A stretch of DNA of 64,000 bases from Volutella citrinella (Eukaryota; Ascomycota; Sordariomycetes; Hypocreales; Nectriaceae), in assembly GCA_034401135.1 (NCBI GenBank), contig JAWZSP010000002.1, forward strand, positions 4,526,001 through 4,590,000, in the 5' to 3' direction. The translations under genes and the position numbers were made by a program. The notes below the pieces were generated by a model. That model saw only the letters and a program-made list of their open reading frames with translations, was not told the DNA's origin and ran no database searches. This document shows positions 16,599 to 34,594 of the stretch, in pieces (the stretch's first letter is position 1; every line of letters starts with the position of its first letter).

Positions 16599-17073
16599 TG
16601 TGGATGATTGAAGGTTTCTATTCCTGCTTCCGAGTATGATACTGACCGCACGGAGCGTTTATGTCGTGGGATGAAAACGAGACGCAAGTTGCCTAATTCT
16701 CGCTTCCCAACGACGAGGTTCAGTGTTGTTCACCGATAATGCTTGTAAGCCGTGGGACACCGGACCGATATGGACGTCCACGCCCGAGATGCCCATTTCG
16801 GCGCGGCCTTTTCCGAGCGAATCGATGCCGGCTTTACGAATCGACTGGTGAAATGCCTTCGACGAGCGGATATGCTGATAATGTGACTCAGCGGCACGGG
16901 TGATGCGCTCACAGAAGCAGATACATCATACTAGGCGGGCTCCTATCGGCAGTTCGGCAAGCACCGAAATCAACAGCGTTCCGTGGTCCTCGGAATGTAT
17001 ATTAAAAAGGCTATTCTGTTTCAAGTTTGTACCCTCCTTCACTCTCCTCACGGATACCTGAGAATCCCACGTC

Positions 17074-17440: not shown

Positions 17441-17788
17441 CAAGGGGCTAAAATTGCGGTCGCTGCGATAAGTGGCTTATTCCTGACATTTATAACAACA
17501 GAGAATCTGGCGATGGTCAGATCGCCAGCCTTGAAACCGGGCCCAACCCCGTTCGGGTTAGCGTACTGCCAGCTCCTTCTAGCCGTTGGTGAATCTCTGC
17601 TTACGAAAGCTCCTGCAGCCCTCCCCTGTTTTCCCTACTAGGTCAGGCTAATAACAAGGCAAAGCAGCCTGATGCGGGGAACCTCCTGCAAATATCTTCA
17701 AACCACAGTGGCTCCCCTTCTTCTCAATTCTCTGATATCGGAGTTGTTTACCAGCATATCCTACTTCATTTGCGCCTCGGGAATCATC
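17441..17788. other. Intergenic, no gene seen
   Basis: Possibly eroded remains of the dehydratase plus the leader of the HET gene. An in-frame ATG at 17672 would extend the HET protein by 39 residues, but that stretch looks non-coding. Confidence 0.4.
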
Positions 17789-19798
17789 ATGGACGCCTCG
17801 CTTTGCGGAGATTGTAAGGACTTCCTACAGAGCAATCACCACGATGGCTATTACGGCGATGAGAGCTGGCCATATTTCAAGGACAGCCAATGTTATGAGA
17901 GACTTATCTCTCGAGTTATCCAGACTGCCGGTCTGGGCTGCAGTATGTGCGAGACTGTCGTCAGCAAGTTCAGATCTCTCAAGTCAGACCTACTGGCAGT
18001 CGCCCAGAGGAACGGCGAACCTGCAACATTCCGACTGCAGATTGAAGAATATTACAACACAAACCTACAGTGGCCAGAGGATATCGACAGACCGTTTCTG
18101 TTGGTTTCTGTCTCTCAAGAAGAGATTAAGTTTCGTTTGTGGCGCGTTTCGACTAGCCACAAAGCAGGCTTTGGAGAGAACGACGGTGATCGAAGCACAG
18201 GCTCGGAAAGCAGCTTCTTGAGGGCGGAGGAATGGCTGCGCAAATGCATGCACAATCATGACAACTGCAACACCGTTGGGACTTCGGGGGACTGGGCCCC
18301 TAGTCGGCTGCTCGACGTAGGACCAGCAAGAAGTCCATTTCCTACGACCATCAAGCTCAGACAAACCGACAACTGGCCAGGTTCGGTGCACTATACTACC
18401 TTGAGCCATTGTTGGGGCCCTGTACAGCCCTTCCGGCTGTTACAGAGCAATCTGCGCGAACTCATGGATGGCATTTCTATCGATGTCTTGCCGAAGACCT
18501 TTCAGGACGCCATATATGCTTCTCGGAGGCTTGGGATTCAGTACCTCTGGATTGACTCTCTATGCATCATACAGGACTCGACTGAAGACTGGAACGCCGA
18601 ATCGTCTCTGATGGCCCAGGTGTATAGTGGGTGCGTGTTAAATCTTGCAGCGGCTTCCTCGATCGACTGTACCGGCGGTCTGTTCCAAAGTCGACCACCT
18701 TCTTACTTGGGCTCACGCTTCATATCGGTAGAGAGCATACCAGATGACGTCAAGTCATATTACCAGATATGGGATCAGAGCGTCTGGCCTGCCGGTTTCG
18801 AACTCGCCAAACTCAATACTCGCGCATGGGTATTGCAGGAGCGCTTACTATCACCGCGAACACTGGGCTTTGCGAAAGCACAGCTCTTTTGGGAGTGCAG
18901 ATGCAATCGCTCTTCTGAAGAATTCCCCTTTGGATACCCGTCCGAATTATTTGAACGACGCCAAAGGGACTTTCCGCAGCCTGGGATACAAGATAAGCTG
19001 AAGACTCATTGTCTGAGCCACCATGCGGGCAGTCGATTCGACGACAACGTTCAACGCCTGAGTCTTGTATGGCATAACTTGGTCATGCATTATTCGAGGA
19101 AAGAAATGGCGTATGAGCAGGACAAACTGCCTGCAATCAGTGGGCTTGCGTCCTTGTTCGCACAGCAACTGAGGACGGCCTACCTCGCTGGGCTTTGGAG
19201 GTCTACTCTTCTCAGTGACCTCCTCTGGAGAGCGAATCCCGGAGACTTCGCTACGAAACGACCTCTCGAGTACCGAGCCCCTTCATGGTCATGGGCTTCC
19301 GTGAACTGCCCTGTGGAGTATCTCCCTGGCTGGATCACGTCACCGGAAGTAACAGTCATCGAGGCCGAGGCGCACCCCATTGTGGAAAAGAATCAATTCG
19401 GCAGGGTATCGGATGGGTGTATTCGCCTTAGGGGAAAGCTCATCCATAATATGACTGTTGTACCTGCCCATGGAAATTGCTACGCCTTGAAGGCCCGCGG
19501 CTCAGAGGGCCATCCGATGGCTGCAGAGTGCACTCCAGACCTGCCGTTTGGACCCGCAGACACGCCACCCGAGATCTTCTGCTTGCCTGTGGGATCATAT
19601 TTTGACAGCTCCCGGGCACTCGGTGGTGACACATGGTATACAGGTTTGGTCTTGGTAGTACATGAGTGTCAACGCAGAGGCTACTACAGAAGATGGGGTA
19701 TCTTTACATCACGTTGGGGGTGGTTCGATGATACGGGCAACCAAACAGCAAACCACCGATATACCGACGACGGACATGATACAATTGTTCTCAAATGA
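17789..19798 (+). CDS. HET-domain (heterokaryon incompatibility) protein
   Basis: A single uninterrupted exon of 669 codons from ATG 17789. The HET domain begins with YTTLSHCWGPVQPF at about residue 200 and continues with AIYASRRLGIQYLWIDSLCIIQ, CVLNLAAASS and, further on, ARAWVLQERLLSPR-like residues (TRAWVLQERLLSPRTLGF), all standard for the family. The first 60 residues contain a Cys pair (CGDC) and another (CSMC) that often precede HET domains. Known members trigger cell death or growth inhibition when genetically different hyphae fuse; the partner here is unknown. It is intact although it sits between two RIP-destroyed blocks. It could be a functional allorecognition gene or an orphan HET gene. 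Confidence 0.9.
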   Translation: MDASLCGDCKDFLQSNHHDGYYGDESWPYFKDSQCYERLISRVIQTAGLGCSMCETVVSKFRSLKSDLLAVAQRNGEPATFRLQIEEYYNTNLQWPEDIDRPFLLVSVSQEEIKFRLWRVSTSHKAGFGENDGDRSTGSESSFLRAEEWLRKCMHNHDNCNTVGTSGDWAPSRLLDVGPARSPFPTTIKLRQTDNWPGSVHYTTLSHCWGPVQPFRLLQSNLRELMDGISIDVLPKTFQDAIYASRRLGIQYLWIDSLCIIQDSTEDWNAESSLMAQVYSGCVLNLAAASSIDCTGGLFQSRPPSYLGSRFISVESIPDDVKSYYQIWDQSVWPAGFELAKLNTRAWVLQERLLSPRTLGFAKAQLFWECRCNRSSEEFPFGYPSELFERRQRDFPQPGIQDKLKTHCLSHHAGSRFDDNVQRLSLVWHNLVMHYSRKEMAYEQDKLPAISGLASLFAQQLRTAYLAGLWRSTLLSDLLWRANPGDFATKRPLEYRAPSWSWASVNCPVEYLPGWITSPEVTVIEAEAHPIVEKNQFGRVSDGCIRLRGKLIHNMTVVPAHGNCYALKARGSEGHPMAAECTPDLPFGPADTPPEIFCLPVGSYFDSSRALGGDTWYTGLVLVVHECQRRGYYRRWGIFTSRWGWFDDTGNQTANHRYTDDGHDTIVLK

Positions 19799-19899
19799 AG
19801 TGCAACTTTCGGTCATGCTTAATGCCAGCTTGTACAGTGTTCGCCAGTCTTTAGCTTTGCCAAACAGCGACCAGTGATGATGAAGTCAAGACTAGTGCC

Positions 19900-20262
19900 G
19901 GCTCAGGCCAAAAGCAGCGAGGCACCGGGAGATGGCGCCTTGCACAAGGTACCGACTGAGCCTGACACAAGGACACGAAAGAGGAGTCTAGGGGAAGAGC
20001 ATAAGGAGAACATATGTACACAAAGGTCTGTGGCCACGATCGCAGCGTTGTTCGTCCCGTAGTGCCCGGGCAGGCACGCCATGGCGAAGAGGCGCCTGTC
20101 GATGCGTTCGAGGACGTAGGATTTTTCGTCGCCGGGCTGTAAGGGCAGCATTTGGTGCTCCGCGTTAAGCATGGCGCCTGACGCCGCCAGCTCCAGCGGA
20201 AGCGCGCAGATCCAGGCGGGGGTGTAATCTGAAAGCCCAGGCTCGCTTTGTGGTGCCTGTTA
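19900..20262 (-). pseudogene. Fragment of a nucleoside phosphorylase-like N-terminal domain (fungal NLR type)
   Basis: The minus strand reads SDYTPAWICALPLELAASGAM, AEHQMLPLQPGDEKSY and ACLPGHYGTNNAAIVATD. This matches the start of the purine/uridine phosphorylase-like domain found at the N-terminus of many fungal STAND/NLR and ankyrin proteins. After VATD the frame leaves the family pattern and ends at 19903. Upstream it runs into the second AT-rich block. There is no NACHT/NB-ARC part nearby. It is best seen as the remnant of an NLR-type gene broken by transposons. Confidence 0.65.
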
Positions 20263-20324
20263 GACCGTCGATTGAATTGATCAGGATCTAGCTTAATACA
20301 TACGCAACCCTGCTTTTAGGAGGC

Positions 20325-21600
20325 TGGGGTTAGGCAGTAATATAATATATAAATATAAGGATTATTTTATAAAGATAATATATACCTATTTATAATAAGC
20401 CTTGGATTGCCTAAATAAGCTATATAATAACTAATTATATTAAGTTACTTTTTATAATTAGTTTAATATACTCTCTTAGACTAAATATATTAAAGTTTTT
20501 TAAATAGTTTTAATTTATATATTATTAATTACTTATTTATTTTTTTAATTAAAAAAGTATTTAAATAAAGTAGATCTTTATTATATTATTAAATATATAA
20601 GTATAGAATTTATTATAATTTACTTATTATTATTAAGTAGTTTTAAATAATACTTTTTATATTTATAATAATAGTTTATAAATAGTAATAATAAGAGTTA
20701 TAATAAATTACTAAGCTATTATTTTTTATTATAAGCTTATAATTATAAAAAATATTTTATATTTTTTAAATTCTAATTTTTTTTTTAACTCTTTTTACTT
20801 TATTATATATTTCCTTAATAAATACTACTTATTATAGCTATTTAAACTATATAATATTAATTATATACTTTTTATAATATTTTTTTAAATTTATTTTTTA
20901 ATATTTTTTTTAAAATATTATAAGTATAAATAAATATAATTATTATATATCTTAACTTAGATCTTTTTAAGCTACTTATTATATAATAAATTTAAAATAT
21001 ATTTAGCTAGATTTAATATATAAAAAAATAGAAAAAATAATAAACTTTATATATATATTATCTATTTTTTATTATTATACTTATTTTTAGATATAACTTA
21101 TATATAATAACTAAGCTAGTTCTAATTATATAAATAGTAGTAATTATATTAAAGTTTATATTAATAATTATATTAAAGTATAATATTAAGTATTAATTAG
21201 TATATAAGATAAATATATTATTATATTTAATAATAAGTAAAGAGTATTTATAATAATTATATATTATTAATAATTAAAAAGATTAATTCTTTTTATAGTA
21301 CTATTAAGCTCTATATATATTTAAGAGAGTTACTTTTATTTATTATTACTTTTTAATAATAATTATTATAAGTAATTCTTTTTTTATTATTATAATTATT
21401 CTTTATTTATATATAATAATAATCTTAATTAGTAAATAATATCTCTTATTTCTTATCTTTTAATCTATCTCTTATTTTAAGTTATAAAGTAAGTATATAT
21501 ATACTTTATTATATATTATATATTAGTACTAAGTTTTAATATAATATCTCTCTTTTTAAAGTCTTATTTTTAAAACTATATTCTATAACCTTTTATTAGT
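20325..21600. repeat. AT-rich block, RIP-destroyed repeats (block 2)
   Basis: About 1.3 kb of nearly pure A/T sequence with no surviving frame. The part at about 21,120-21,550 corresponds to the reverse complement of block 1 at about 15,090-15,540. Most mismatches are transitions, and block 2 is the more AT-rich of the pair. It ends directly at the left LTR of the retrotransposon. Confidence 0.85.
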
Positions 21601-21605
21601 TAGTT

Positions 21606-21939
21606 TGTTGGTGAGAATGACAGGCCCAAACAAACACCAATAATTGTCAGTGTCCCCTGCAGAAACCTGCCGTAGGGTAACTGAACTTGGGCGAAAAGCG
21701 AAATTTTGCGTGACCTCCAGCAAGAGAACCTCGCAAGATAAACAAAATCTGAATTGACCAGCGATCTGATCAGACAGAAATGAAGGAGTCCCTGAACAGA
21801 AAAAGATTGAAAGAGGGGGAAAATTCTTGTTGATCTCAAGTACTGAGCGAACCTGCCCCTTTTAAGCTACTGACCCAAACGCCCAATTGACCAATCCAGC
21901 CCAACCACCAAAATGCCAATGTGATCCAGCTGCCACACA
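21606..21939 (-). repeat. 3' LTR of the retrotransposon
   Basis: It appears identical over 334 bp to the LTR at 33411-33744. It abuts AT-rich block 2 on the left and the polypurine tract on the right. Confidence 0.92.
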
Positions 21940-21949
21940 CTCCTCCCCC
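21940..21949 (-). other. Polypurine tract of the retrotransposon
   Basis: On the element strand GGGGGAGGAG lies directly against the 3' LTR, the expected position and composition for the plus-strand primer. Confidence 0.75.
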
Positions 21950-22018
21950 ATGGTCTGCATCATGTCCTCATGATCAGGCAGACCATGCCCCAAGCAAAGA
22001 TATCCGAGCCAAGACTAA

Positions 22019-24520
22019 CTACTGTCCACCAACATCCTCCATTTCCACATCCTCGTCTCCAGCGTCCTCCATGTCCTCGTCCTCGCCCGATCCCTGTTCC
22101 GCCACAACTTCCCGCAACACCGGATTCGCCTTGATCAGGTTGCGGCTGCGATACCGCTCCGCCCGGCTGGGCTTGGGCTTTGCCTCTTGGGTCGCCCACG
22201 GTCGCGTCGCTTCGTGGAAGATGAAGTCCCACTGACCAGGGTGAATCAGATTAGGCGGGACAAACGGCGCCCATGTGTATGTCGTAGTGCCAGGAACTGG
22301 GAACCCGTAGATGATTCGATCCTCGACTGGGCACAGCGGTACCACTCCGTTCACAGCGCGCACCATCTCCTCAGCGGCCTGTCCAAGGGGCTGATCCTTC
22401 AGAGCCTCCTTGGTTGCCAGGGCGTCCTCTATGGTGCACGGCAACTTGAGTGCTCCGGCGATCTCGGGTGTGGAGGCGACGAGCTTCTTCAGAGGCACTT
22501 GGCCAGTCTCGGGGTCAATTCGCTGCCCATCTTCGTCCACCTCGACACGAGGTTCCCGTTTGACTCGGAAGCCTGGGCTCGACGCTCGTGATCCGGGTTG
22601 CGATGGCTCTGGTGTTGCCGTCAGTCTCTTCGGGGCTGGCGGTTGCGGCTGCCTGAAGAAGCTGTGGAAGGTGCTGTGCTTCATAACACCAGGCGGCGGA
22701 GGCTGATCCCACAGATCCGACCCGGCTCGTGAGGGTGTTGAGCTACGCGACCTTCCTTCAGACCGATCGCGATCCTCCCCAACACCTGAGCGTGGTGTAG
22801 CTTGGCGCGTTCTGGTGCCAAACGTAGACACAGGCGGGGCCGGGGGCATGCCAGCAGCGGGCTCTCGACCAGCCGAGTCTGATCGCGACGGGGTTCGTCG
22901 ATGGAAAGGGTTGGCCGGAAAGTAATGAGCGCTGGCTCGGTACCCGGGTGTAGGGCTGTCGGGCACATTCTCGACTGAGGGTTGAAGAGTCGCGATTGGC
23001 GGCTGGCTGTCGCCAAGAGGAGCTGGGGACTTCGCGGGAGGCGTTCCGATCAGATCAATAGAGCCCTGTCCGTCAGTGTTGAACTCCGATCGGGGCCTTT
23101 GCGGCACAGGGCCCTTCCAAGCAACGCCTCGGCTCTTCCACATGGCGAGTACCTCATCAGAAATCTTGGTGCGGACTCGAGCTTGCTGGTCAGCCGGCGG
23201 AGCGGAAGACCGCAGGAGATTGGCACTGCTTGGATTCGGTCTGATCAGGTGGAGCGACGTCGGAGAGAAGGCATAGCGAAGCTTGTCAACCTTGAAGCAG
23301 AGGTGGCCGCCAAAGCTGGTAAAGAAGCGTTCGTCTCCATGGATCTCAGAAACGTCGATGAACTTGGTGACATGGCGCATGTAAGGGATCGAGTAAGGAA
23401 TCTGCTCCTTGGTGATCTTCGGGAGTGTAAAGCCAAGATCCATAAGGGCCGCAGAGGTGAGCAGGGCGTAAACGATGTCGAGGCTCTCGTCGCGGTCGCC
23501 GGCAGCGTGATCGACAGTAGCCAGGACCCAGTCTCGAAGTCGGAATCGGAATGCAGGCTCGTGCTTCGGGCGGGTGCGATCAATCGTCAAGATAGCCTTC
23601 TTTGTGTGTTTGTCGAAATCCTCCGGGCCATAGCCTCGCAGGCCGCGTAGTGTCTGGAAGAGGCAAAAGACACTAAGGAATCCACACTCAAAGCCGTTGG
23701 GCTGATCGGATAGAGGTGGGACAATCAGCTTGAAGTCGAAGGGCATTCCGAGAGAGGCAAGGGTCTCGCGCCAGACGTAGGCGAATTGGGCGGCATGAGG
23801 GCGGATCTGCTTTCTCATGGTGTCGAAGAAGTAAACGTGACCGACTACCCGATCGTACAGGAATGAACCCCAATGGGAACTGGCGAAGTTGACTAGACCA
23901 ATGAAGAAAGGCTTGTCTCCCATGAGGTGGCGGACGCGGTCGGGGGCACCTAGGCCAGTGAAGGGGGTCTGCAAGGCTCGATTGGTACCGTGGGGGAGAA
24001 GCAAGTTGGAACCAGTTTCACCGATCTTGGGGTTTGGGAAAGGCACGTTCCCCTCGATTCCAAGCACACCATCGCCGAAGGCCACTAGGTCTTCCATGCC
24101 GTACGAAACCATGCGAACGAAGGCCATCAGCTCAGTGTCCGATGCCCAGCCTTTGTCATTCATTTTGCCGATCGCGCTCCAGAGGCTACGGCAGTGCTCT
24201 GCCCAAACGTTGTCGGCGTGTTTGATCTCCTTAAAGTGGTCTCGCATAGGCACTTTGTCGAAGAGGGGGATGGCTAGTTTTGGGTCTGCGATCTCGAGGG
24301 TATTGTCAACAGGGTCCCAAGTCTCGCGAGGTTTGAAGAAGGCAGGTTGTCGGCGGTAGAGGTCAGTGAGGTTGCCAAACCGTTCCTCGACAGAGGTTCT
24401 TCCTGCCGGATCTTCTCCTTGAACCGAACCGAAGAGGAGCAGGGGATCGGTGCTTGCGCTGTAGCACCCTTGGGAGTTCTCCCACGCTGGGTTGACTTTC
24501 ATGCCTCGGGTTCGCGACAT
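22019..24520 (-). CDS. Ulp1/C48-like cysteine protease carried by the retrotransposon
   Basis: One uninterrupted frame of 833 codons from ATG 24520. Residues 200-300 have the adenain-fold Ulp1 pattern: SSHW with His216, VYFFDT with Asp233, and DQPNGFECG with Gln273 and Cys279, i.e. the QxNxxDCG-type ending with Glu in place of Asp. All four catalytic residues are present. Known family members cleave SUMO, Nedd8 or related isopeptide bonds, or viral polyproteins; the substrate here is unknown. From about residue 480 the protein is Ser/Pro-rich, and it ends in a highly acidic tail (GEDEDMEDAGDEDVEMED). It is transcribed in the same direction as Gag-Pol but is a separate frame 2 kb downstream, between pol and the 3' LTR. 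Host gene capture or an old element-specific gene are both possible. The intact length suggests selection or recent arrival. Confidence 0.8.
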   Translation of the reverse strand: MSRTRGMKVNPAWENSQGCYSASTDPLLLFGSVQGEDPAGRTSVEERFGNLTDLYRRQPAFFKPRETWDPVDNTLEIADPKLAIPLFDKVPMRDHFKEIKHADNVWAEHCRSLWSAIGKMNDKGWASDTELMAFVRMVSYGMEDLVAFGDGVLGIEGNVPFPNPKIGETGSNLLLPHGTNRALQTPFTGLGAPDRVRHLMGDKPFFIGLVNFASSHWGSFLYDRVVGHVYFFDTMRKQIRPHAAQFAYVWRETLASLGMPFDFKLIVPPLSDQPNGFECGFLSVFCLFQTLRGLRGYGPEDFDKHTKKAILTIDRTRPKHEPAFRFRLRDWVLATVDHAAGDRDESLDIVYALLTSAALMDLGFTLPKITKEQIPYSIPYMRHVTKFIDVSEIHGDERFFTSFGGHLCFKVDKLRYAFSPTSLHLIRPNPSSANLLRSSAPPADQQARVRTKISDEVLAMWKSRGVAWKGPVPQRPRSEFNTDGQGSIDLIGTPPAKSPAPLGDSQPPIATLQPSVENVPDSPTPGYRASAHYFPANPFHRRTPSRSDSAGREPAAGMPPAPPVSTFGTRTRQATPRSGVGEDRDRSEGRSRSSTPSRAGSDLWDQPPPPGVMKHSTFHSFFRQPQPPAPKRLTATPEPSQPGSRASSPGFRVKREPRVEVDEDGQRIDPETGQVPLKKLVASTPEIAGALKLPCTIEDALATKEALKDQPLGQAAEEMVRAVNGVVPLCPVEDRIIYGFPVPGTTTYTWAPFVPPNLIHPGQWDFIFHEATRPWATQEAKPKPSRAERYRSRNLIKANPVLREVVAEQGSGEDEDMEDAGDEDVEMEDVGGQ

Positions 24521-24852
24521 TTCGTCAGGCTTGGTGTAGCGGGTTCAAGGGCTCGATGATGGGTCTGATCAGGCAGAATGATGATGAAAATGAGGGAGAA
24601 AGAGAGGCAGTCTGTGTGCGTTGAGGAGTTGAAATGTTTGTTGCTGGAGAGGTGGTTTGCTTCTTCGCGCCGGGAAGAGAGCCGTCCTTTGAGCAGACTT
24701 ATTGCCGTGATTCACTGCCACTAGCCGCGCACCTGCCAGATCCGGCTCTTTGTCATTCATGCCTTTACCCTCTCTGCCCTTTCTCTGCTCTTCTCTTCTC
24801 TTTTTCCCTTCATCATCAACTTCATCTTTGTTGTCGCGACGGCTTTGTCACG
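24521..24852. promoter_or_regulatory. Divergent promoter interval inside the retrotransposon
   Basis: This 332-bp stretch lies between the protease start (minus) and the Cys-rich gene start (plus). It contains CT-rich leaders on the plus side and TGATCAGG near 24,567. Promoter function is inferred from the divergent arrangement. Confidence 0.45.
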
Positions 24853-25883
24853 ATGTCTTCGAACCGCAGCTCAGAGGCGCCCGAGGCTCCCCCTCGCCCG
24901 CGTATTGTTGTTGATCCTTATGCCCTTGAAGAATTGCGTACCAAAGAGCGCAAAGATTTGCCGAACATCATCAAAGCTGTGAAGCCAGGGCTGCACGCTA
25001 AAGATTTCCGACCGACTCATCGCCTTAACACTCGAGGCAATCGAACAGAGTTCATGACCGCCAAGGATACCGGCTTCAACAGCGCCAGCAATGTAATGCC
25101 CTTGTCTGATCATCCTGACCTTGTTGTGGCTAACCATTTTTCCTTTGGCAGACTTTCAGTTTCTTCGACGTGTGGATCTGCTCCCGCCTTGGCCTCGATC
25201 GCGCTGGTCAACCGATGTTTTGTCGTCTCGCTTTCCGAGGAGCTGACGACGAGGAGGTTCTCGAAAGCGCCTCTGGGTTCTGGCAGACCTCTATTGGCGA
25301 CTCGTCCGACCTCCGTCATGCCGTTCGATACACCGCGAAGACTCTCCCGAATCCCGTCTACATCCCCGCCGAGTACGCCCATCCGAAGGGGTACTTCTTC
25401 GCTCAACTGAATGCCCGCCCAAATCACGTCAAGGCGCTCTTCATCGCGTGTTTCGGTCAGATCAACCCGCTGACTTGTCGCCACTGTGCCTCGACTTTCA
25501 TGACGACTGTCACATCCTTCGGCGACCACATACTCTGGCCATTTCACGCTTGCATGTCGATTGCCGACTTCCACGGGGGTTCTTGCGCTAATTGCGTCTG
25601 GCGCGAGTGCCCTGATTGCAGCTGGTCCTTTATGCCTGGCTACCTCCCCACTCGCCGAGACGAAGGCCCTCTGCTTTATCCTCTGCGTGGTCGGGACACA
25701 ATTCGTGAGGATGGTCATAACCGCTACTATGAGGTCGATCCCATGAACCCTTCGAGTTGCCCTGAGATCACTTGTAATCTTCCCGCACTTGAGCCGATCC
25801 CTGAGGAGGATATGCAAGCGCGGCTTGAAACCGCTAGGGAGCGTTCTTGGGATGATTATATGACTGGGTTCCGCCATCTGTAA
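24853..25883 (+). CDS. Cys-rich protein gene with intron, antisense within the retrotransposon
   Basis: Exon 1 (24853-25092) and exon 2 (25152-25883) joined across a 59-bp phase-0 intron (GTAATG...GGCAG, inner CTAAC) give 323 residues; the join reads FNSASN|TFSFFDVWICS. The second half has three CxxC pairs, CRHC at 189-192, CANC at 225-228 and CPDC at 233-236, suggesting a zinc-binding fold. It may correspond to a fungal Cys-rich DUF such as DUF3716, but I am not certain. The gene is on the opposite strand to Gag-Pol, so its intron is not recognised in the genomic RNA of the element and survives retrotransposition. It is divergent from the Ulp1-like gene, which suggests coordinated expression. 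Function is unknown. The two frames overlap as separate ORFs if the intron is ignored, so transcript support matters. Confidence 0.65.
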
Positions 25884-26511
25884 GGGCTCTAGCAGTGGGA
25901 CTGTTGCTTTTGGGTTGCTGGACATGGGATTTTCTTTGGGTTGGAGCTGGTTTGCTGTGTCCGATCGGGCCCATCCGCTTTTGTTCTTTGCGTCTGTCTT
26001 CATTCTGGGTCTTCAGGTTGCTTAAGTAGTGAGCGTCTTCGCTCTAAGAATGGAAAATTTTCTTCCCGGCACTCTGTGGTCTCCAGGCGTCGTTTCCTTT
26101 GTGCCCGTTCTGATCGTTCCAATATGTGTCTTCGCTGTGCGTCACATCTTGTCTAACTGATCGTCTTGGACTGTCGAGTTCCGCGCCTGAGCGTGTCTCA
26201 CAGCGTCCTGGCTGGGGTCGGCTCGTGTCTTGGACAGTCTTGGGGCGTGTCCGGCGCTGTCGAGCCGCTTGTCTTAACGTGTCGCCGACAGTGTCCTCTG
26301 GTCGATCTGGCTTGTCTCGTCTCGTCCCAGCGGTTGTGGCCAGTTGTCGTCGTGTGTCAAAATTTTTCTGGGTAGGTCACCCAAGTCTTTTGGTGTGTGT
26401 TTTGGTCGCGTCTTGCCATCACACCCATCCTCCCCGGTCAGCCACCACAGCTCCCGCACGCGTGAGCTGGCCTGTTCCTGTCTGATCGGGCAGAATCCTC
26501 CCCATCTCCGC
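25884..26511. other. Non-coding segment between cargo and pol
   Basis: About 630 bp without a supported gene. It is rich in TGTC and TGATCGG-like words. It holds the 3' ends of Gag-Pol (minus) and of the Cys-rich gene (plus), which converge here, so terminators for both are expected. Confidence 0.5.
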
Positions 26512-29500
26512 TTAGAGTTTGGAGTATTGGTCTCGCGCCGCTTTTGGCATCGTCGGCAGTTGGACCTCTACCCTATAACCAGGGCCTTTTCTTGGAGGAG
26601 GCATCCTTTCTTCCTCATCCACAACCCCAGACTCGTCACTAAATGACGAGTCGCTTGCATCCGACTCATCATCACTGGATTCTAGAAGGCTTCCTTCCTC
26701 TTCCGAGAGGCTGTCGCTTTCTTTGTCCTGGTTTGTTTCGAGATTTGCAAGTTCTTCCTCGAGATTAAACCACCAGCCACTCTCATCTTGGATAAACTTC
26801 TTCAAATGTTCTCCATGGGTCGTGGTGGCCAGTTTGATCCCGTCAAGTGTTTCCAGCTGGTAGCTTGGCGATCCCTGGCTGTGCCTGTGTATTCTGAAGG
26901 GGCCCTGCCAGCGCGGTCGCATTTTGGCCTCTGTCGACATGTCCTGGGATCTTGGCACATCGTACTTCAGCACTAGGTCTCCTTCCACCAACGGTTCTTT
27001 CCTGAGTGAGTGCAAATTGGTCTTGTCGGTCCGATCAGCCAGTTTCCTCCTAAATGCTGTTGCTTTTCGGATGGCTTCATTAACATCCTCCTCTTTCCTC
27101 TGGAGGACCTTGATCCTTCGCAGCAGCAAATCTTCAGAGCTCCTGACCTCATCCCAATTCACAGTCCTCCAGGTAGGGATCTTGACTTCGATCGGTAGTC
27201 TAGGTTCCCATCCATGAAGCAGGTAGAAGGCTGATCGTCCGTGGGATGCTCTGATCGCGGATCTGTCGGCTAAGAGGACTTCCTCCAGCTGGTCAACCCA
27301 GCACCCACCCAGCTTCTTGAGCGCATTTGTCAGGATGGAGTGCCCTCCTTCCACAATGCCATTAGCCTTCGGGTTATAGGCTGACGTCCAGATCACCCTG
27401 ATCCCATAGTCCTCAAGTACTCGCTTGAAGTCCTTCTTCGTTTCCTTCCCATTGTCGACAACTGCCTCTTGAGGCATGCCATACCTAAATATGACACGCT
27501 TGACGAAGGCCTTGAACGTTTTCACTGTGACTTTGCTCACGGCTTCGGCCTCAATCCACCCCATCAGATCACATCGTCCCTCGTAAAGGAACTTCTTTCC
27601 TTTTCGTGGAGGCATGTACTGGGCGTCGAAGTGGATCTTCTCCATTGGCCTCCCTGGCGTCGAAAAGCCGGCCTTTTCCCTTGGTCGCCTGGGATCATGC
27701 TCTTGGCATGTCGCACAGGCTGTCACTAATGAATATGCGTCTGATCGCATCGACTTCCAGTAGTACCTCCCTGCTGCTGAGTTGAAGGTCGCCTCTCGTC
27801 CTTTGTGCCCATTTTCAGTATGGCAACATCGCAGGATCTCCCTCTGAGTCCCCCCGTCGTCAACCACTAGGACTGGGTCCGCATAAAGCCCGCCTGGCCT
27901 CTTCCATAAGTAACGCTTCTTTACCATGAACTTCGGGGCATTCCGCCTTATCTTGCGGTAGGCTTCAGGTGAAATTCCGGCGGGTCTTTCCAGCGTTTGA
28001 AGGTACCTCCCCATCACCTGGCATTCAGCTCCATAGCTCTGGTCCAGCTCCTTACTGTCGTCATCCAGGGTGATCGTATTAAGGTGAAGGTCGATAAACT
28101 GGTCCATGTCTCCTTCGACGTCCTGATCCATCTGGTCAGATGGACCGGGCTCCTTTCGGGACAGCCCGTCAGCCGCGCCATTCTTCTTTCCTGGGACATG
28201 CTTTGCAGTGAAGTCGAAAAGCATGATATAGCTTAGCCATCGGTTGATCAGGGCCCCGGGGACATCGTCTGCTCGCCCGTTCAACTGGTGAACCAGGACC
28301 TGGGAATCCGTTTCCAGGGTAAAAGGGACTCCATAGAGGTAGCCTCTCAGTCTCCGAAAGGCATGCAGAACTCCTTTGCATTCGCGCTTTGTCGCATCGT
28401 ACCCTTGTTCTGCAGTCGTCCATACTCCTGATTCGTATCGAGCTGGCTTGCGCTTACCGTCCACAACTTGTAGGATCAGGGCTCCCCATCCACGAAGGCT
28501 GGCATCTACCATGAGTATAATTTCACCGGCTCCTTCGCTGTAATCCAGCGTGATCAGGATGGGGGCAGTGACCAATCTCTCTTTGAGGACCTTCATAGCA
28601 TCTTCCTGCTCAGGGCCCCAAACCCATTCGGCATCCTTCTTCAAGAGCTTAGTGAGAGGTATCGCGATCCAGGCGTAGCCCATCACCCAGATCCGGAAGA
28701 ACCCTGTGACTCCTAGGAATCCTCGTACTTGTGTAATGTCTTCGCAGGCTTTCCACTCCAGGATCTTGATGATCTTTTCCTCAGAGGGTTTCCGCCCGTT
28801 GTTGCCACACAGGTATCCCACCAGAATTGCTGTTTCCTGACAGAACTGGGATTTTGCTGCTGAGATCGTGCAGCCAGAGAGCTCCACATTAAGAAGGGCC
28901 TTGTCCAGGTTGACCAGATGCTCCATGACGTATCGCCTTACGCCAGGAAGGCTCTCCTCCCCGCCGTAGTCAGTCGCTGGACCTCTAACTGCAATGTCGT
29001 CAAGGTAGGCCCGGCATACGTCAGGGATCAGATCAAACAGAATCCTGGTCATAATCCTTGAGAACTGAGCTACCGAGTTGGTGGCTCCCTGTGGGAGTCG
29101 ACACACCCGCAGTAGCCCCAGAGGTGTCATGAACGACGTCATATCCCGGCTCTTCTCATCCAAGGGGACCTGATCATAACCGGAAAAGAAATCCAGGACG
29201 CTGGTGATCTTGCATTGCGCAAAGTCGGCTGAGAATTCATCGGTATTAGGCGGACTCATGGCGTCTTTGATCGTAAACGCATTGTACTTCGTCGCCGAAT
29301 TGATCAGTCGCAGGCCGCCGTCTTTCTTCTGAACCAGGAACCAAGGGTTGCGGTACGACCCATGACTTTCCTCCAGGACCCCTCGTTCCAGTCGGGCCCT
29401 CAAGAGGTCGATCACTTTATTAGCCATGCCCTTCGGGATCGGTATAGTACCAGCCTGGAACGCCCGGTGAGGGATCACTTTGATCGTCTGTGGCGGCGCG

Positions 29501-32500
29501 ACCAGAGGGTCCAGCAATCCGCTCTCTGTAAAGTCCCAGGCTAGGGCCGCCTCACGGTTGTACAGCACCTCTGTTAGAACTTCCCGTTCTTGCCGGGTAA
29601 GGGTGCCGTCGACTTGATCAAGCAGATTCTTGAGTCTCTCTGCTGTCAGCCGGGTGCCCTTCTCGATTTTGGAGAACTTTGGTGTTAGCCCTGGGTACTT
29701 GGGTGGACCCTGGAAGTTCTTCTGGGCCTCAGCCAACTTCTTCTCCTTCCACTGCGGGTCTCCTTCGGGGGTTGAGCCATCAGGTGGCACGTCCTCCAGA
29801 GGTCTGATCTTATCGGCTTTGCGCTTGTACATCGTGTTGGCTTTGATGTCTTCGCCCGGTTGCTCTGCGCAGGTCCTCTTCTGGTCGCTGAACATCTGCG
29901 TCTGCTCGTCCATAGCAGCTTGCACCATCGTTCGATAACAGCCCCAGATCTCCTTCTTGATCAGTTTGACAATCTCGCAGGCCGTATCCTGTCCGATCTT
30001 TCTCAAAGTGCTGCGATCATCGTCTCCTTCGAGGGTGACTTTCTCCTCCCCGCTCGGATCCAGAGTGCAGGCGTTCGTCTTTGGGTTCTGCTGGCAGTCC
30101 TCTCTCCCAAAACGCGGCTGGTCGTATCGTATGTTGCCGGCTGCTGCCGTCACGACTCTGATCTCTCCGAGTTGGCATCGGATGAGTAGGTTCCCATCGC
30201 GAGACGTGTGATCGAACGAGACCTTACATGTTCGGATGAAGGGCATTCCTAGCAAAAGGGGCACACTGACCCCGTCCGGGACGACGTACATCCTCTGCTC
30301 CACCCACACATTCCCTAAGTAGAGTTTTGTTAGACACTCACCTACCATCTTGACCTTTTCCCCGTTATAGGCCGTGGTTGTGGCCTTAGCGTACCCGACC
30401 TTCAGACCGGAAGCCTTGGCCACTGATTCAGAGATCAGGTTCCCTTCTGCCCCGGTGTCCACCAGCCCTTCGATAGCTGGTCCGTCTGCTCGATCAAGCC
30501 GAACTCTGATTCGTGGTAACTCTTGGCAGTGGGAGATCAATCTCGCGCTTACTGCGCTTTCCAGGTTGATTGAGACTTGATGGGTTCGCAGCTCCTCACG
30601 CCACTCCGACTTGTCCGTCATCGACTGGCCGAGCAGATCTGCGATCTGGTTGTCCGGAGCGATCTTGACGTTGTTGACCTTGCATTTCTCCTTCATGGCT
30701 TCAAAGTAGGCGTCTGAGAAGTTTTGCGGTTGGGCTTCCTCCATTACAGCATAAGCCGCCATGCGGGTTTGATCGCGGCCAGCCCCTATGCTAGATACTG
30801 GCTCGATGTACTGGGTGTTCGTTACTTCGTCAACGACCTCCCCAATGTCTCGGTGAAATCCCTCTGCAAATTGAGGGTCGAGCTTCATGATGTCCTTTAA
30901 GGAGACGTTCATCTTCCGATTAGCGGCTTCAGCGCGCAGTCTCTGCCTGATCCGATCTTTGCTGTCATCAGGGGTGGTCCTAGGATTCGTGTTCCTGTCG
31001 TCGCTGGGTTGGCGGCCGGACTGCGAGCGCTTCATCGAGGCGTCCTCTTGGGGATCATCCCGTTGGTCTTGAGGATGTTGATGGGAACCGATCGCCTTCC
31101 CATCGTTACTCCTCAGGCGCTTATTGGCCGCATTGTTGACTCGAATGCCCTTCTCCGCCACATCAGGGCCCGGGCCGTCTTCATCCACTGTGAGGAAATT
31201 GGTCCTTGTCTGGCTAGAAAACGTCCCTTGGGCTAACCGATCGTTCCGATCAGGGTGAAGCTGAATCCGGGGGTTGAGTCGGGAGCCCTCATTCTTCTTC
31301 ATGAATCTCTCGAAGAGGTCCTTCTCCTCGGGTGTCTCAACATACCCCCCAGGCGGCTTCCAGAAATGTGTAAGGGTCTCCCCGAGACTCCATGCCTCGG
31401 TACCCGGGAAACGGTTCGACCACAGGACCATTCCTCGTCTGATCCCGCCCGCGCTGTGGCGGAAGATTCCGACCAGGAATGGGGGCACAAAGTACTCACC
31501 AAGCCAGACAGCCCCCGCGCTTGGTTCATAATGGGTAATATGCTCCTTCTTACTGTCCTTTCGCAGCTTCAGGCAATCTCTCAGAGCATGATCCTCATCG
31601 CCGCAGTAATAACACCGATACTGCTTGAACTCGCCTGCTACCATTGTCGCGATGTCTTGGTCGTTCCTCTCGATGATCCTCTCAATTGTCTGGCAGTCGT
31701 GGATTTCCTCAACAGCGGCCGTGTTCGTCTGGATATTCCGGATCCGCGCACCTTGTTGCAAGACGCGTCTTTTCTCGCGGGTCCCCTCTTGGTCCTTAAG
31801 GACTGCGACCTGGATGCTCAGCTCCTCGATCTGACGGGTCAGATCGGCTAGCGCTGACTCGGCGCCGCTCGCTTCCTCATTCCTGTGCTGGAAACTGACC
31901 CTTTTGTCCTTCGGGAGCGAGTGCCGGGCTCTGTCTGGCTGGTCGGCGGGGTCGCCTACCTTGCTTCGCGACGCGCCACCCCCTTCAGAGTCACTGTTCC
32001 ACTCTGATCGGCCCGATCTCTCAGTGATCCCTTCAACCTGGAGGATCGTGTTGATGCTGTCCGACACCGTTTTGTAGGGCTTCTCTAGGATGGTGTCTGG
32101 GGTGCAGCTGAGTTGCCTGCACAGTTCCTTCTTCCATTGGTCAGGGAGCCCTTTATATAAGGTGTAAGCGAAGGTCGTGTTGGTTGCCCAATCATTTGGG
32201 TAAACCGCCTTGATCAGGTAGGCGTGCTTGTCCATCCACCTTCTCATGCCTTGGACATCCCCCAGTTTGATGTCGGGGTTTGCCATGTTCATGAGTTGGT
32301 GAATCGGTGCTCCATCCAGCTCATCATCATAGCTCTTGAACCGTTTGATCAGCATGCTCTTGGCTTCTTCCCAAGAGCAGCCTTCCACAGTTCTCCTTAC
32401 TTGCTTCATCAAGGATCTTCCGGTGACCCTTAAATCCACGTCCTCCTTCATCTGGCTCTCAGAGAATCCTTGAGCCCTCATGTGATCCTCGTAACGTTTA

Positions 32501-33114
32501 AGGAAGAAGGTGATCCCATCCCCATCAAAGTAATATTGATCAGGGAAGGGACGGTACTCGCTGCTCGCTGGGTGATCCATCTTGGAGCTAAACAGCGGAG
32601 TGGTTACTGCTTCTTCGTAGTCTGGAGGGGTCGCAGATGTGAACGGTTTTCCCGTGCAAGATGCCTTGCTAAGAGGTTGAACAGTCTGATCAATTCCGTG
32701 GGATTCCCCGAGGGTTGAAAGAATATCTGGTGACTGAATAGGCTCAGTATGAGAAGTTGTATGAGAAGTCCCTTCTGCTGGAAGGTCCGCAGCAGGCATG
32801 TGCTTGGTTGCTTCGTGCTTTCTCTTGCGTGTCATGGTGATGATTCCATCCCATGGGATCTGTTCGAATATAAGTGCGTAAGCCAGTAGCAGCAGAACTG
32901 TCGTCAAGCTGACTCTTGCAGCCACGCAGATTACCACTAATCTGGTTATCGCGGTGAGTTTTCCAATCGGTATGGAGACCGTGATCGGGAATTCGACCTT
33001 CGGCTCAAAACATAGCGTGTCCATTCCATAATTGGCCTGATCGGGCCGAATCTCGGGGCAGGATTTGTTATGTCTTTGCCCTGGCCAGGCGACTGGCGAT
33101 GCTTTGTCTCGCAT
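26512..33114 (-). CDS. Gag-Pol polyprotein of the LTR retrotransposon
   Basis: One frame of 2200 codons without stops. The probable start is Met94 (ATG 32835, MTRKRKHEATK), because the first 93 residues include a hydrophobic run atypical of Gag. In order: a Gag-like region near 190-350, a CCHC knuckle CYYCGDEDHALRDC at 501-514, a retropepsin with DTGAE (Asp886), a reverse transcriptase with YLDD (Asp1372, Asp1373), and an RNase H with ILMVDASLRGWG. The integrase follows, with an HHCC zinc segment (HTENGHKG, CATC) and catalytic Asp1830, Asp1887 and Glu at about 1922. It ends in a basic then strongly acidic tail; no chromodomain is evident. Gag and Pol share one frame with no frameshift, as in several fungal Ty3/gypsy elements. 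All catalytic motifs are present, so it is likely functional. Confidence 0.93.
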   Translation of the reverse strand: MRDKASPVAWPGQRHNKSCPEIRPDQANYGMDTLCFEPKVEFPITVSIPIGKLTAITRLVVICVAARVSLTTVLLLLAYALIFEQIPWDGIITMTRKRKHEATKHMPAADLPAEGTSHTTSHTEPIQSPDILSTLGESHGIDQTVQPLSKASCTGKPFTSATPPDYEEAVTTPLFSSKMDHPASSEYRPFPDQYYFDGDGITFFLKRYEDHMRAQGFSESQMKEDVDLRVTGRSLMKQVRRTVEGCSWEEAKSMLIKRFKSYDDELDGAPIHQLMNMANPDIKLGDVQGMRRWMDKHAYLIKAVYPNDWATNTTFAYTLYKGLPDQWKKELCRQLSCTPDTILEKPYKTVSDSINTILQVEGITERSGRSEWNSDSEGGGASRSKVGDPADQPDRARHSLPKDKRVSFQHRNEEASGAESALADLTRQIEELSIQVAVLKDQEGTREKRRVLQQGARIRNIQTNTAAVEEIHDCQTIERIIERNDQDIATMVAGEFKQYRCYYCGDEDHALRDCLKLRKDSKKEHITHYEPSAGAVWLGEYFVPPFLVGIFRHSAGGIRRGMVLWSNRFPGTEAWSLGETLTHFWKPPGGYVETPEEKDLFERFMKKNEGSRLNPRIQLHPDRNDRLAQGTFSSQTRTNFLTVDEDGPGPDVAEKGIRVNNAANKRLRSNDGKAIGSHQHPQDQRDDPQEDASMKRSQSGRQPSDDRNTNPRTTPDDSKDRIRQRLRAEAANRKMNVSLKDIMKLDPQFAEGFHRDIGEVVDEVTNTQYIEPVSSIGAGRDQTRMAAYAVMEEAQPQNFSDAYFEAMKEKCKVNNVKIAPDNQIADLLGQSMTDKSEWREELRTHQVSINLESAVSARLISHCQELPRIRVRLDRADGPAIEGLVDTGAEGNLISESVAKASGLKVGYAKATTTAYNGEKVKMVGECLTKLYLGNVWVEQRMYVVPDGVSVPLLLGMPFIRTCKVSFDHTSRDGNLLIRCQLGEIRVVTAAAGNIRYDQPRFGREDCQQNPKTNACTLDPSGEEKVTLEGDDDRSTLRKIGQDTACEIVKLIKKEIWGCYRTMVQAAMDEQTQMFSDQKRTCAEQPGEDIKANTMYKRKADKIRPLEDVPPDGSTPEGDPQWKEKKLAEAQKNFQGPPKYPGLTPKFSKIEKGTRLTAERLKNLLDQVDGTLTRQEREVLTEVLYNREAALAWDFTESGLLDPLVAPPQTIKVIPHRAFQAGTIPIPKGMANKVIDLLRARLERGVLEESHGSYRNPWFLVQKKDGGLRLINSATKYNAFTIKDAMSPPNTDEFSADFAQCKITSVLDFFSGYDQVPLDEKSRDMTSFMTPLGLLRVCRLPQGATNSVAQFSRIMTRILFDLIPDVCRAYLDDIAVRGPATDYGGEESLPGVRRYVMEHLVNLDKALLNVELSGCTISAAKSQFCQETAILVGYLCGNNGRKPSEEKIIKILEWKACEDITQVRGFLGVTGFFRIWVMGYAWIAIPLTKLLKKDAEWVWGPEQEDAMKVLKERLVTAPILITLDYSEGAGEIILMVDASLRGWGALILQVVDGKRKPARYESGVWTTAEQGYDATKRECKGVLHAFRRLRGYLYGVPFTLETDSQVLVHQLNGRADDVPGALINRWLSYIMLFDFTAKHVPGKKNGAADGLSRKEPGPSDQMDQDVEGDMDQFIDLHLNTITLDDDSKELDQSYGAECQVMGRYLQTLERPAGISPEAYRKIRRNAPKFMVKKRYLWKRPGGLYADPVLVVDDGGTQREILRCCHTENGHKGREATFNSAAGRYYWKSMRSDAYSLVTACATCQEHDPRRPREKAGFSTPGRPMEKIHFDAQYMPPRKGKKFLYEGRCDLMGWIEAEAVSKVTVKTFKAFVKRVIFRYGMPQEAVVDNGKETKKDFKRVLEDYGIRVIWTSAYNPKANGIVEGGHSILTNALKKLGGCWVDQLEEVLLADRSAIRASHGRSAFYLLHGWEPRLPIEVKIPTWRTVNWDEVRSSEDLLLRRIKVLQRKEEDVNEAIRKATAFRRKLADRTDKTNLHSLRKEPLVEGDLVLKYDVPRSQDMSTEAKMRPRWQGPFRIHRHSQGSPSYQLETLDGIKLATTTHGEHLKKFIQDESGWWFNLEEELANLETNQDKESDSLSEEEGSLLESSDDESDASDSSFSDESGVVDEEERMPPPRKGPGYRVEVQLPTMPKAARDQYSKL

Positions 33115-33394
33115 CTCGGGTCGTCTTCCGCTCCCTTCTCAGGTCCGCCGATTGAAGTGTCCACCCAATTGGAATGATGATTCGGCTTCGATCATGAAGA
33201 ATCCTCCATCCGATCTTTGCTCGTAGTTGAATCGTTTTTCGGGGTTCGCGCGACCGCCCACTCTTGGAGCAGTCGCCTCGCTTTCCGACTTCGAATCAGG
33301 GATTGCAGGTTCTGGTGCAGCGTAGAAGTGCTCCTCTGGTCGAGCCGTCTGATCATTCAGATCTCTGGCCTCTGACAAAGGAATACCCCCCCCA

Positions 33395-33406
33395 CCGTGA
33401 CCTCCA
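33395..33406 (-). other. Candidate tRNA primer-binding site
   Basis: On the element strand TGGAGGTCACGG begins four bases after the 5' LTR; it starts with TGG, as expected for pairing with a tRNA CCA end. The tRNA is not identified. Confidence 0.45.
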
Positions 33407-33410
33407 AATT

Positions 33411-33744
33411 TGTTGGTGAGAATGACAGGCCCAAACAAACACCAATAATTGTCAGTGTCCCCTGCAGAAACCTGCCGTAGGGTAACTGAACTTGGGCGAA
33501 AAGCGAAATTTTGCGTGACCTCCAGCAAGAGAACCTCGCAAGATAAACAAAATCTGAATTGACCAGCGATCTGATCAGACAGAAATGAAGGAGTCCCTGA
33601 ACAGAAAAAGATTGAAAGAGGGGGAAAATTCTTGTTGATCTCAAGTACTGAGCGAACCTGCCCCTTTTAAGCTACTGACCCAAACGCCCAATTGACCAAT
33701 CCAGCCCAACCACCAAAATGCCAATGTGATCCAGCTGCCACACA
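33411..33744 (-). repeat. 5' LTR of the retrotransposon
   Basis: It appears identical to the LTR at 21606-21939. The base after its outer end begins the coding sequence of an oxidoreductase fragment. Confidence 0.92.
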
Positions 33745-34594
33745 ATACAACGTCAACAACCCCAAGTGGTCGTATGAGATCTTCGTCTTTGGCGGCGACA
33801 AACTCGAGACGCTGTACGAGTTGACAAATTCCATGATGAAGACACAGCCTCCCGAGGCTATCCACTGGGCATATATTGTCAAGATACCTGACTTCGACAC
33901 GGATCACGTAAGTCAAGTCCATGAGACCAGGATCGCCGCCTTAGAAAACTGACAACAGTAGCCGGTCATTTGGTACGCTGTCATATACGACGGCCCAGTG
34001 GAAAAGGCACGCGAATACGCCAAGTCCATTCATGCTCTGGATCCGAAATTTGCACAGGCCGGCGAAGCTTCGATGCCTGATCTTGCGCCAATCACCATGA
34101 TGGGGAGCGAGAGCATAGGCTGTGCTAAAGGCTTGACGGGTTTGCGCTATCCAATCGGACTGAAAGAATACAATCTGCCCGCTCTCCGGAAAGTTTACGA
34201 TGAAATCGTTGAGACGATATCCAAGGTTCCCGAGCTTTCCGGGACATTCTTCCTCCTCGAAGGATATCCGAACCAAGGCGTGCAGGCTATCGATGGCGCA
34301 ACGGCGGCATTTCCACACCGGGACGACAAAATTCTCATAACCTCCTACGTCATGTATGCGCCAAACTCTACAATTGATGGACCAGCACAAGCGTTTGGTG
34401 AATCATTACGGCAAACGCTTCTGGAATCTAGCACTGACCCGGAACACTTGAACGCATATGTGAACTACGCACATGGAATGGAGTCTTTGGAATCAATGTA
34501 TGGATGGGAGTCGTGGAGGCTGGACAGGCTGAGAGAGCTGAAGCAGAAATGGGACCCCCAGAACCGCATGCGGTATTATAACCCTATTGCCTAG
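33745..34594 (+). pseudogene. C-terminal fragment of an FAD-binding (BBE-type) oxidoreductase
   Basis: Exons 33745-33907 and 33962-34594, joined by a 54-bp intron (GTAAGT...CAGTAG), read YNVNNPKWSYEIFVFGGDK, HWAYIVKIPDF and, near the end, NYAHGMESLESMYGWESW and KWDPQNRMRYYNPIA. The NYAHG and WDP.N....NPI pattern is the C-terminal berberine-bridge-like part of FAD-linked oxidases. The frame enters directly from the LTR, and the FAD-binding N-terminal half is absent on the other side of the transposon. The fragment cannot encode a working enzyme. Its own sequence has no stops, so the truncation is recent. Confidence 0.8.

Follow-up and report, generated by a model that had tools for sequence, protein, structure and literature searches.

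The 64,000-nucleotide stretch of Volutella citrinella DNA analysed here (henceforth the window) contains a Ty3/gypsy element of 12,141 bp (21,604-33,744, minus strand, with identical LTRs of 336 bp each), and we propose that the normal body plan of its family joins gag-pol to a fixed accessory module, two divergent genes of which one encodes a Ulp1-like cysteine protease and the other a cysteine-rich (Cys-rich) protein. Sequence comparison places the module at the same position in intact copies and in relics. Our analysis suggests a module that is accessory and probably directed against silencing; to the reading as a whole, including the anti-silencing mechanism set out below, we assign a probability of roughly 0.4. 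The parts of the element, in window coordinates, are:

21604..21939, minus strand: 3' LTR, 336 bp, TGTGTGGC...CCAACAAA, with no difference from the 5' LTR or from the LTRs of the six other full copies
21940..21949, minus strand: polypurine tract GGGGGAGGAG, read directly, immediately upstream of the 3' LTR
22019..24520, minus strand: gene for a Ulp1/C48-like cysteine protease of 833 aa, a single open frame in the same sense as gag-pol
24521..24852, no strand: gap of 332 bp between divergent start codons, in which a palindromic motif site lies (24,561-24,576)
24853..25092, plus strand: first exon of the DUF3716-like Cys-rich gene, which runs antisense to gag-pol
25093..25151, plus strand: predicted intron, 59 nt, GTAATG...GCTAACC...GGCAG, with one motif copy, indel-rich in relics
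25152..25883, plus strand: exon 2 of the Cys-rich gene, with a DUF3716-like CxxC region, open in seven of seven copies
25884..26511, no strand: spacer of 628 bp from the gag-pol stop to the Cys-rich stop, with three GATCAG sites
26478..26493, no strand: example of the motif, matching at 11 of 12 positions, immediately past the pol stop
26512..33114, minus strand: Gag-Pol, a single 2,200-aa frame running from a zinc knuckle to PR-RT-RH-INT, with a GPF motif
33395..33406, minus strand: candidate primer-binding site TGGAGGTCACGG, lying two bases inward from the 5' LTR
33409..33744, minus strand: 5' LTR, 336 bp
33567..33582, no strand: example of the motif CNGNCTGATCAGNCNG within the LTR, 11 of 12 positions

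LTRs, a polypurine tract and target-site duplications mark the family as Ty3/gypsy, although the copy in the window, against expectation, has no such duplication. The initial annotation had described a unit of 12,139 bp with identical LTRs, a polypurine tract and an intact Gag-Pol frame. The LTRs are indeed identical, the purine run at 21,940-21,949 adjoins the 3' LTR and the frame of 2,200 aa is open in all seven full copies, whereas the exact length needed correction: the bounds shift by 2 bp because other copies show 4-bp target duplications. No tRNA matching the candidate primer-binding site was identified, the number of tRNAs predicted in the window being zero. The pol domains follow the Ty3/gypsy order of aspartyl protease, RT, RNase H and integrase (Pfam PF13650/PF13975, PF00078, PF17917/PF17919 and PF17921/PF00665, the PF00665 match scoring 32.0 bits, slightly below its cut-off of 32.6), and the mark of a chromovirus, a chromodomain at the integrase C-terminus, was absent among the Gag-Pol Pfam matches at E 0.01.

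The two genes between pol and the 3' LTR had also been claimed, and both are present. In the Ulp1-like protein, residues H216, D233, Q273 and C279 align with the His-Asp-Gln-Cys positions of yeast Ulp1 (1euv), which we take to be its catalytic residues, giving a complete set of catalytic-type residues. The identification of a Ulp1-like protease thus gains from the fit of all four residues in the alignment but not from the score: the phmmer match against PDB 1euv is weak (E 0.045), a Pfam C48 match is absent even at E 10, and a genome search with PF02902 at E 1 found nine other places and zero element copies. As the C48 profile match is not significant, we file the protein as Ulp1-like only. 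A scan of viral contigs returned no relatives of it, and single-sequence structure predictions were uninformative (mean pLDDT 36.6 for the whole Ulp1-like protein and 35.7 for Cys-rich exon 2). The Cys-rich gene, as annotated before, had to be corrected to an antisense gene that by its sequence bears an intron: it lies on the plus strand, head-to-head with the Ulp1-like gene, and its two exons, predicted from the sequence together with the splicing of the 59-nt intron, encode 323 aa. Its protein probably binds metal and scores 20.6-20.8 bits against DUF3716 (PF12511; E ~4e-4); as this lies below the curated cut-off of 22, it is classed as DUF3716-like. The 332-bp gap between the two start codons is presumed to be a two-way promoter.

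Elsewhere in the host genome the full unit recurs. Full-length copies number at least seven, spread over six contigs, and their LTR pairs are spaced 11,803-11,805 bp apart; 4-bp target duplications flank six of the seven, as well as all four near-identical LTRs among the 13 unpaired LTR loci compared, the rest of which were too diverged for ungapped comparison. In every one of the seven intact copies, gag-pol, the Ulp1-like gene and the main exon of the Cys-rich gene (exon 2) have open frames, and both cargo genes occupy the same place. A further nine relics, mutated by RIP (with both genes, some truncated, in seven of them), also carry cargo, and its position stays fixed across relics whose transversion differences reach 6%. 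Because the cargo is present in these nine relics, the suggestion of an element lineage with a two-gene module between pol and the 3' LTR stands, and a one-off insertion is rejected, given also the near-constant spacing of the full copies and the target duplications of six.

The element is also rich in a palindromic motif around CTGATCAG, which was identified post hoc. Specifically, GATCAGAC occurs 11 times where 0.75 are expected, palindrome-like sites number 37 in 11.8 kb of element against a Markov mean of 7.8 (largest of 60 simulations, 14), with 17 in 39.3 kb of host DNA, and the top 7-mer has the core CTGATC in noncoding-only and in coding-only element sequence alike. TGATCA shows a single transversion in 354 site-copies, the lowest value among 44 six-mers; the conservation of GATCAG is unremarkable (rank 27 of 77 among same-letter six-mers). 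The coding enrichment of the motif is partly codon-driven: the best 7-mer scored 10.2 in the observed sequence but 11.0 in at least one of 60 synonymous shuffles; for 8-mers the largest shuffled score was 7.4, compared with 9.3 observed. GATC by itself is in excess, too (in gag-pol, 80 vs. 49.5), and the Cys-rich gene itself contains zero GATCAG sites.

One explanation of this array is that the motif is the target of a host regulator unrelated to the cargo, which would then act in some other way. Sites also occur within the LTR and between the two divergent genes, regions at which action of host factors would be expected, and the link between motif and cargo is one that we infer. Against this, 33 of the 43 GATCAG sites in the element lie in coding DNA; those 43 sites fall within 11.8 kb of element, compared with 25 in the 51.9 kb of host DNA in the window; and the element's RT piece has six, whereas none of four cargo-free gypsy RT pieces (1.1-1.2 kb each) has any. 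We consider this explanation rather unlikely.

Cryptons with C48 proteases exist. Ulp1 proteases are likewise carried by Ginger1 and Mutator-like elements, but these are DNA transposons, and in Ginger1 the Ulp1 domain is part of the transposase (excerpts of PMC2836005). A parallel is offered by the VANDAL elements of Arabidopsis: in the excerpted literature, VANC proteins bind a short element-specific motif, some VANC genes have an Ulp1 domain, and anti-silencing is reported for VANDAL. The element described here shares with VANDAL elements carrying VANC, including KIU, the Ulp1 likeness and a motif that is dense and element-specific when set against four short RT pieces and the window's host DNA. 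Unlike it, VANDALs are plant DNA transposons with motifs mainly in noncoding tandem repeats (according to the same excerpts), whereas here the motif also occurs in coding DNA and is not tandem. As for the antisense gene, Boty of Botrytis cinerea carries an antisense extra gene, brtn (Zhao 2011, cited in the excerpted PMC7264820), and Boty/BcGypsy1 is similarly a fungal gypsy-type element with that gene between pol and the 3' LTR (excerpts of PMC7264820 and PMC8365987). In Boty, however, one extra gene is named and Gag-Pol has a chromodomain (excerpt of PMC4227169), while the present element has two genes, the protease-like one in sense, and a chromodomain was not found; it is set beside brtn by description only. 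The plant gypsy elements Grande, RIRE2 and Retand have antisense aORFs between pol and the 3' LTR in most copies per family, but they belong to plants, and the excerpted review text (PMC7264820) never mentions Ulp1; according to it, what the extra genes of plant (and Boty) retrotransposons do is unknown. Among the literature matches listed, none is a fungal element with the pair of a Ulp1-like and a Cys-rich gene. The initial annotation's statement that no such fungal element has been described therefore holds for the pair among those matches, but not for extra genes in general, given the excerpted account of Boty brtn; extra antisense genes were already known from Boty and plant elements, the two-gene pair is new as far as searched, and the motif is an observation of the present analysis.

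The motif array makes the counter-silencing reading more specific. In the mechanism we propose, the Cys-rich protein or a partner would bind the motif on element DNA as a dimer and bring the Ulp1-like protease there; the protease would act on host repressors bound to chromatin, stripping them of SUMO or a related modifier and leaving the element transcribable. The antisense placement of the Cys-rich gene would keep its intron from being removed when genomic RNA is spliced. It is conceivable, though on present analysis unlikely, that the family is an independent fungal counterpart of VANDAL/KIU, in which an antisense Cys-rich protein reads a scattered motif and directs a deSUMOylating-type protease to the repressors there. 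If true, this would mean that a fungal element and the plant VANDAL elements have converged although they differ in kingdom and in element class. A single young family here offers the pair of genes, their conservation and a motif that is a candidate target, so that the hypothesis of SUMO removal at the motif becomes testable, and the antisense position of an intron-bearing retroelement gene gains a testable reason. The nine relics mutated by RIP show a family unprotected from RIP, which counts against the anti-silencing reading.

Among the seven copies dN/dS is unmeasurable because no compared stretch has more than one change relative to the window. Selection was measured on the relics in a RIP-blind manner (transversions and indels), excluding the C3 copy described below, alignments shorter than 120 nt and, at the protein-match step, matches with E > 1e-8. 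In the union of eight relics, transversions by codon position numbered 108/85/150 in the Ulp1-like gene (p 7e-5), 23/32/61 in gag-pol (p 4e-5) and 31/24/39 in the Cys-rich gene, where the bias was not significant (p 0.17). Indels per kb amounted to 2.3, 3.3 and 2.7 in the Ulp1-like gene, the Cys-rich gene and gag-pol, compared with 8.5 in other noncoding DNA and 23.5 in the predicted intron of the antisense gene, which in these alignments evolves as noncoding DNA. Coding indels were mostly frame-breaking (10/39, 1/18 and 1/17 being multiples of three), as expected after relic inactivation. These patterns point to an Ulp1-like protein under purifying selection similar to that on gag-pol, with weaker evidence for the Cys-rich protein.

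The similarity in selection between protease and gag-pol would also suit a module that serves the particle or integration, the protease processing or deconjugating Gag-Pol or aiding nuclear entry and the Cys-rich protein acting as an RNA/DNA chaperone, with silencing uninvolved. Retrovirus-like accessory functions have been proposed for antisense extra ORFs (excerpt of PMC7264820), as has a part for Ulp1 in transposition (excerpt of PMC2836005). Gag-Pol, however, already contains an aspartyl protease, and the element-wide motif array would be left unexplained; we think such a role unlikely.

We judge it improbable that the cargo is a passenger host gene pair, gained by transduction and functionless for the element. 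There are four host DUF3716-domain loci, a very weak C48 match (E 0.2) lies at a distance of 1.3 kb from one of these, and the codon bias of the Cys-rich gene is not significant. Yet the cargo has kept its position in relics up to 6% transversions apart, with codon-position bias in the protease and few indels; outside element copies neither cargo protein was significantly matched among the scored own-genome candidates (best E 0.026); and no host homologue pair beside broken cargo in intact, spreading relatives was seen. A nested insertion or an assembly artefact, for which the window copy's missing target duplication might speak, has practically no chance of being correct: seven LTR pairs are very unlikely to be spaced so uniformly by chance or through an assembly join, and the copies, six with target duplications, exclude it.

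A 20-kb copy (C3) was considered as a 57% diverged relative and rejected as such: with C>T or G>A accounting for 3,181 of its 3,185 differences, it is a RIP-mutated copy of the same element.

We searched the host assembly (26 contigs, 45.1 Mb) with the LTR of the element and found at least 31 matches, including seven pairs spaced 11,803-11,805 bp apart. Contig C2 holds two of these pairs, the window copy among them, and C1, C3, C7, C9 and C11 hold one each. Each of the seven copies has open reading frames for gag-pol (2,208 codons), the Ulp1-like protein (841 codons) and Cys-rich exon 2 (249 codons), meaning that the two-gene cargo reported in the initial annotation is kept by the other copies as well. 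In each stretch compared, no other copy departs from the window copy by more than a single substitution or a single 1-base indel (the middle part of the six other copies being covered by the RT match only), and all 14 LTRs of the full copies are identical. The amplification of this family is recent.

Features of the window copy (window positions)
33,744 to 21,604, minus strand: Ty3/gypsy element, termini from 4-bp target duplications of other copies
22,019-24,520, minus strand: Ulp1-like gene
24,853-25,883, plus strand: Cys-rich, DUF3716-like gene, two exons

The LTRs of the window copy are, as first described, an identical pair (336 bp each). Of the termini proposed initially, 33,744 stands and 21,606 is corrected to 21,604, because other copies show 4-bp target duplications (six of the seven full-length copies, and all four unpaired near-identical LTRs). 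At the window copy itself we found no target duplication (flanks GTAT vs. CTAA); its absence and the unlike flanks suggest a rearrangement or deletion. HET-domain genes flank the element on both sides in the window, with a BBE-domain ORF (33,998-34,594) on the 5' side (flank 33,745-34,594) and AT-rich DNA on the 3' side (flank 21,300-21,603). Inside the LTR, the 12-base candidate primer-binding site recurs with one mismatch (33,513-33,524 and 21,708-21,719). The gag-pol stop is followed by a second polypurine-like run, GGGGAGGA (26,496-26,503, minus strand). This run resembles the true tract (21,940-21,949) and may be where an ancestral element ended before it acquired the module.

Beyond the seven copies, matches to the Ulp1-like gene group into nine degraded places (relics).

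Relics found with the Ulp1-like gene
C3:537 kb
C11:190 kb
C11:205 kb
C9:1.75 Mb, only the Ulp1-like gene of the cargo found
C7:4.24 Mb, only the Ulp1-like gene of the cargo found
C9:2.40-2.41 Mb, interrupted by an insert
C4:1.94 Mb
C5:1.36 Mb, second cargo gene by alignment
C3:1.49 Mb

Both cargo genes, some truncated, occur in seven of the nine (six via protein search, C5 via alignment), and in all five relics with a close RT (C3, C11, C4 and C9 twice) the Ulp1-like gene lies downstream in the same orientation. Among the matches listed, none placed cargo near more distantly related gypsy elements (25-31% identity in RT; e.g., C1:5.739 Mb and C10:754 kb). Contig C10 (778 kb) carries seven RT matches without stops (at 45.7, 72.8, 87.2, 224.8, 278.1, 611.5 and 754.5 kb) and may represent an accessory chromosome rich in repeats. 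One relic (C3:519,455-539,903) is colinear with the element apart from two inserts (one read in part), and 3,181 of its 3,185 differences, over 12,064 sites, are C>T or G>A, mostly at CA (1,414/1,621, 87%) and CG (1,211/1,494, 81%). This is the pattern of RIP. Strong RIP thus acts or acted in this genome, yet seven copies that are near-exact in the stretches compared escaped it or arrived later. Together with the HET-domain genes beside the element, RIP in the relics points to a filamentous ascomycete as host.

Since RIP produces transitions only, we aligned the other eight relics in purine/pyrimidine letters (transversions at 0.6-6.1% of sites) and counted transversions against the young element (unique sites, union of the eight relics; p against equal shares); the relics have a common history, so these and the indel counts are not fully independent. 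Transversions at codon positions 1/2/3 numbered 108/85/150 in the Ulp1-like gene (p = 7e-5), 23/32/61 in gag-pol (p = 4e-5; 829-832 codons covered) and 31/24/39 in the Cys-rich gene (p = 0.17). Indels per kb were 2.3, 3.3 and 2.7 in the Ulp1-like gene, the Cys-rich gene and gag-pol, respectively, compared with 8.5 for the remaining noncoding sequence and 23.5 for the Cys-rich intron (about seven times the exon frequency). In each set at least 28/39 of the coding indels were not multiples of three (29/39, 16/17 and 17/18), as expected after inactivation. Codon-position bias and low indel density therefore argue that the protease-like gene has been maintained like gag-pol; for the Cys-rich gene, indel density is what points to maintenance.

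Between the Ulp1-like protein and yeast Ulp1 (1euv) there is a weak match (E 0.045). H216, D233, Q273 and C279 of the element protein align with the catalytic residues of Ulp1, and its QPNGFECG with QPNGYDCG. A Pfam search gave no match at E 10, and the element was absent from the listed matches of a C48 profile over the host genome. The Cys-rich protein has a DUF3716 match just under the cut-off and three CxxC pairs, a pattern that would be typical of zinc binding. Its gene is antisense to gag-pol and is predicted to contain an intron with fungal-type signals (GTAATG, GCTAACC, CAG); an antisense-strand intron stays in genomic RNA and can therefore survive retrotransposition, as would apply here. 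At one host locus (C4:4,789,764-4,791,298) a DUF3716 match and a very weak C48 match are 1.3 kb apart, and none of the RT matches listed is nearby; the two may represent a pair of host genes related to the cargo.

The element is also dense in a palindromic motif, an enrichment noticed post hoc and counted in 11,805 bp (the element minus one LTR). CTGATCA occurs 19 times vs. 2.6 expected (largest in 200 shuffles, 8) and GATCAGAC 11 times vs. 0.75; the remaining 51,859 bp of the window hold 25 GATCAG and one GATCAGAC. The top 8-mer score was 9.3, compared with at most 4.6 in four AT-normal host stretches (two overlapping); the AT-rich stretch 9,600-21,603 scored up to 24, from AT words. The 43 GATCAG matches (33 coding, 10 noncoding) occupy 40 places, with three close palindromic pairs, and their flanks widen the core to the palindrome CNGNCTGATCAGNCNG. 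At least 9 of its 12 positions are matched by 37 sites, compared with a Markov mean of 7.8 and with 17 sites in 39.3 kb from the host. GATCAG is present in each of the LTR, leader, pol-to-gene spacer, intron, divergent gap between the cargo start codons and 3' end (10 in 1,728 nt), and absent from the Cys-rich gene. Synonymous shuffles gave means of 11.7 vs. 25 observed in gag-pol (0/500 reaching 25) and 2.9 vs. 8 in the Ulp1-like gene (3/500 reaching 8); plain GATC was also enriched (80 vs. 49.5 and 30 vs. 19.1, respectively). The top 7-mer contains CTGATC in noncoding-only and coding-only sequence alike. Across 60 synonymous shuffles, 7-mer scores reached 11.0 (10.2 observed) and 8-mer scores 7.4 (9.3 observed), and codon pairs account for part of the enrichment. 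In relics, GATCAG carried 10 transversions vs. 21.9 expected (10/500 shifted controls as low), ranking sixth of 44 common 6-mers in conservation and 27th among the 77 6-mers with the same letters; TGATCA, with one transversion in 354, was the lowest of the 44. The spread of the palindrome in both orientations across the element suggests a candidate dimer binding double-stranded DNA.

The structure and conservation of the element are well supported by these comparisons, and we infer the function of its module. The initial annotation knew of no described fungal element with this pair of cargo genes. This holds for the Ulp1-like gene, which our search of open-licence papers found in no fungal LTR element among the matches listed; antisense extra genes as such are already described in fungi, as in Boty brtn (extracts of PMC7264820, including the title of Zhao 2011). 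Extracts of a fungal survey report complex elements with added domains, attributed to multiple insertions (PMC3248453), and those of PMC2836005 report Ulp1 domains in several DNA transposons. In Arabidopsis, the motif bound by VANC, YAGTATTAY, is dense in the element family to which that VANC belongs (PMC5735166), and in some VANDAL elements the VANC gene includes an Ulp1 domain (PMC13317346). Our element, from another kingdom and element class, shares two ingredients with the system so described: a dense motif and an Ulp1-type gene.
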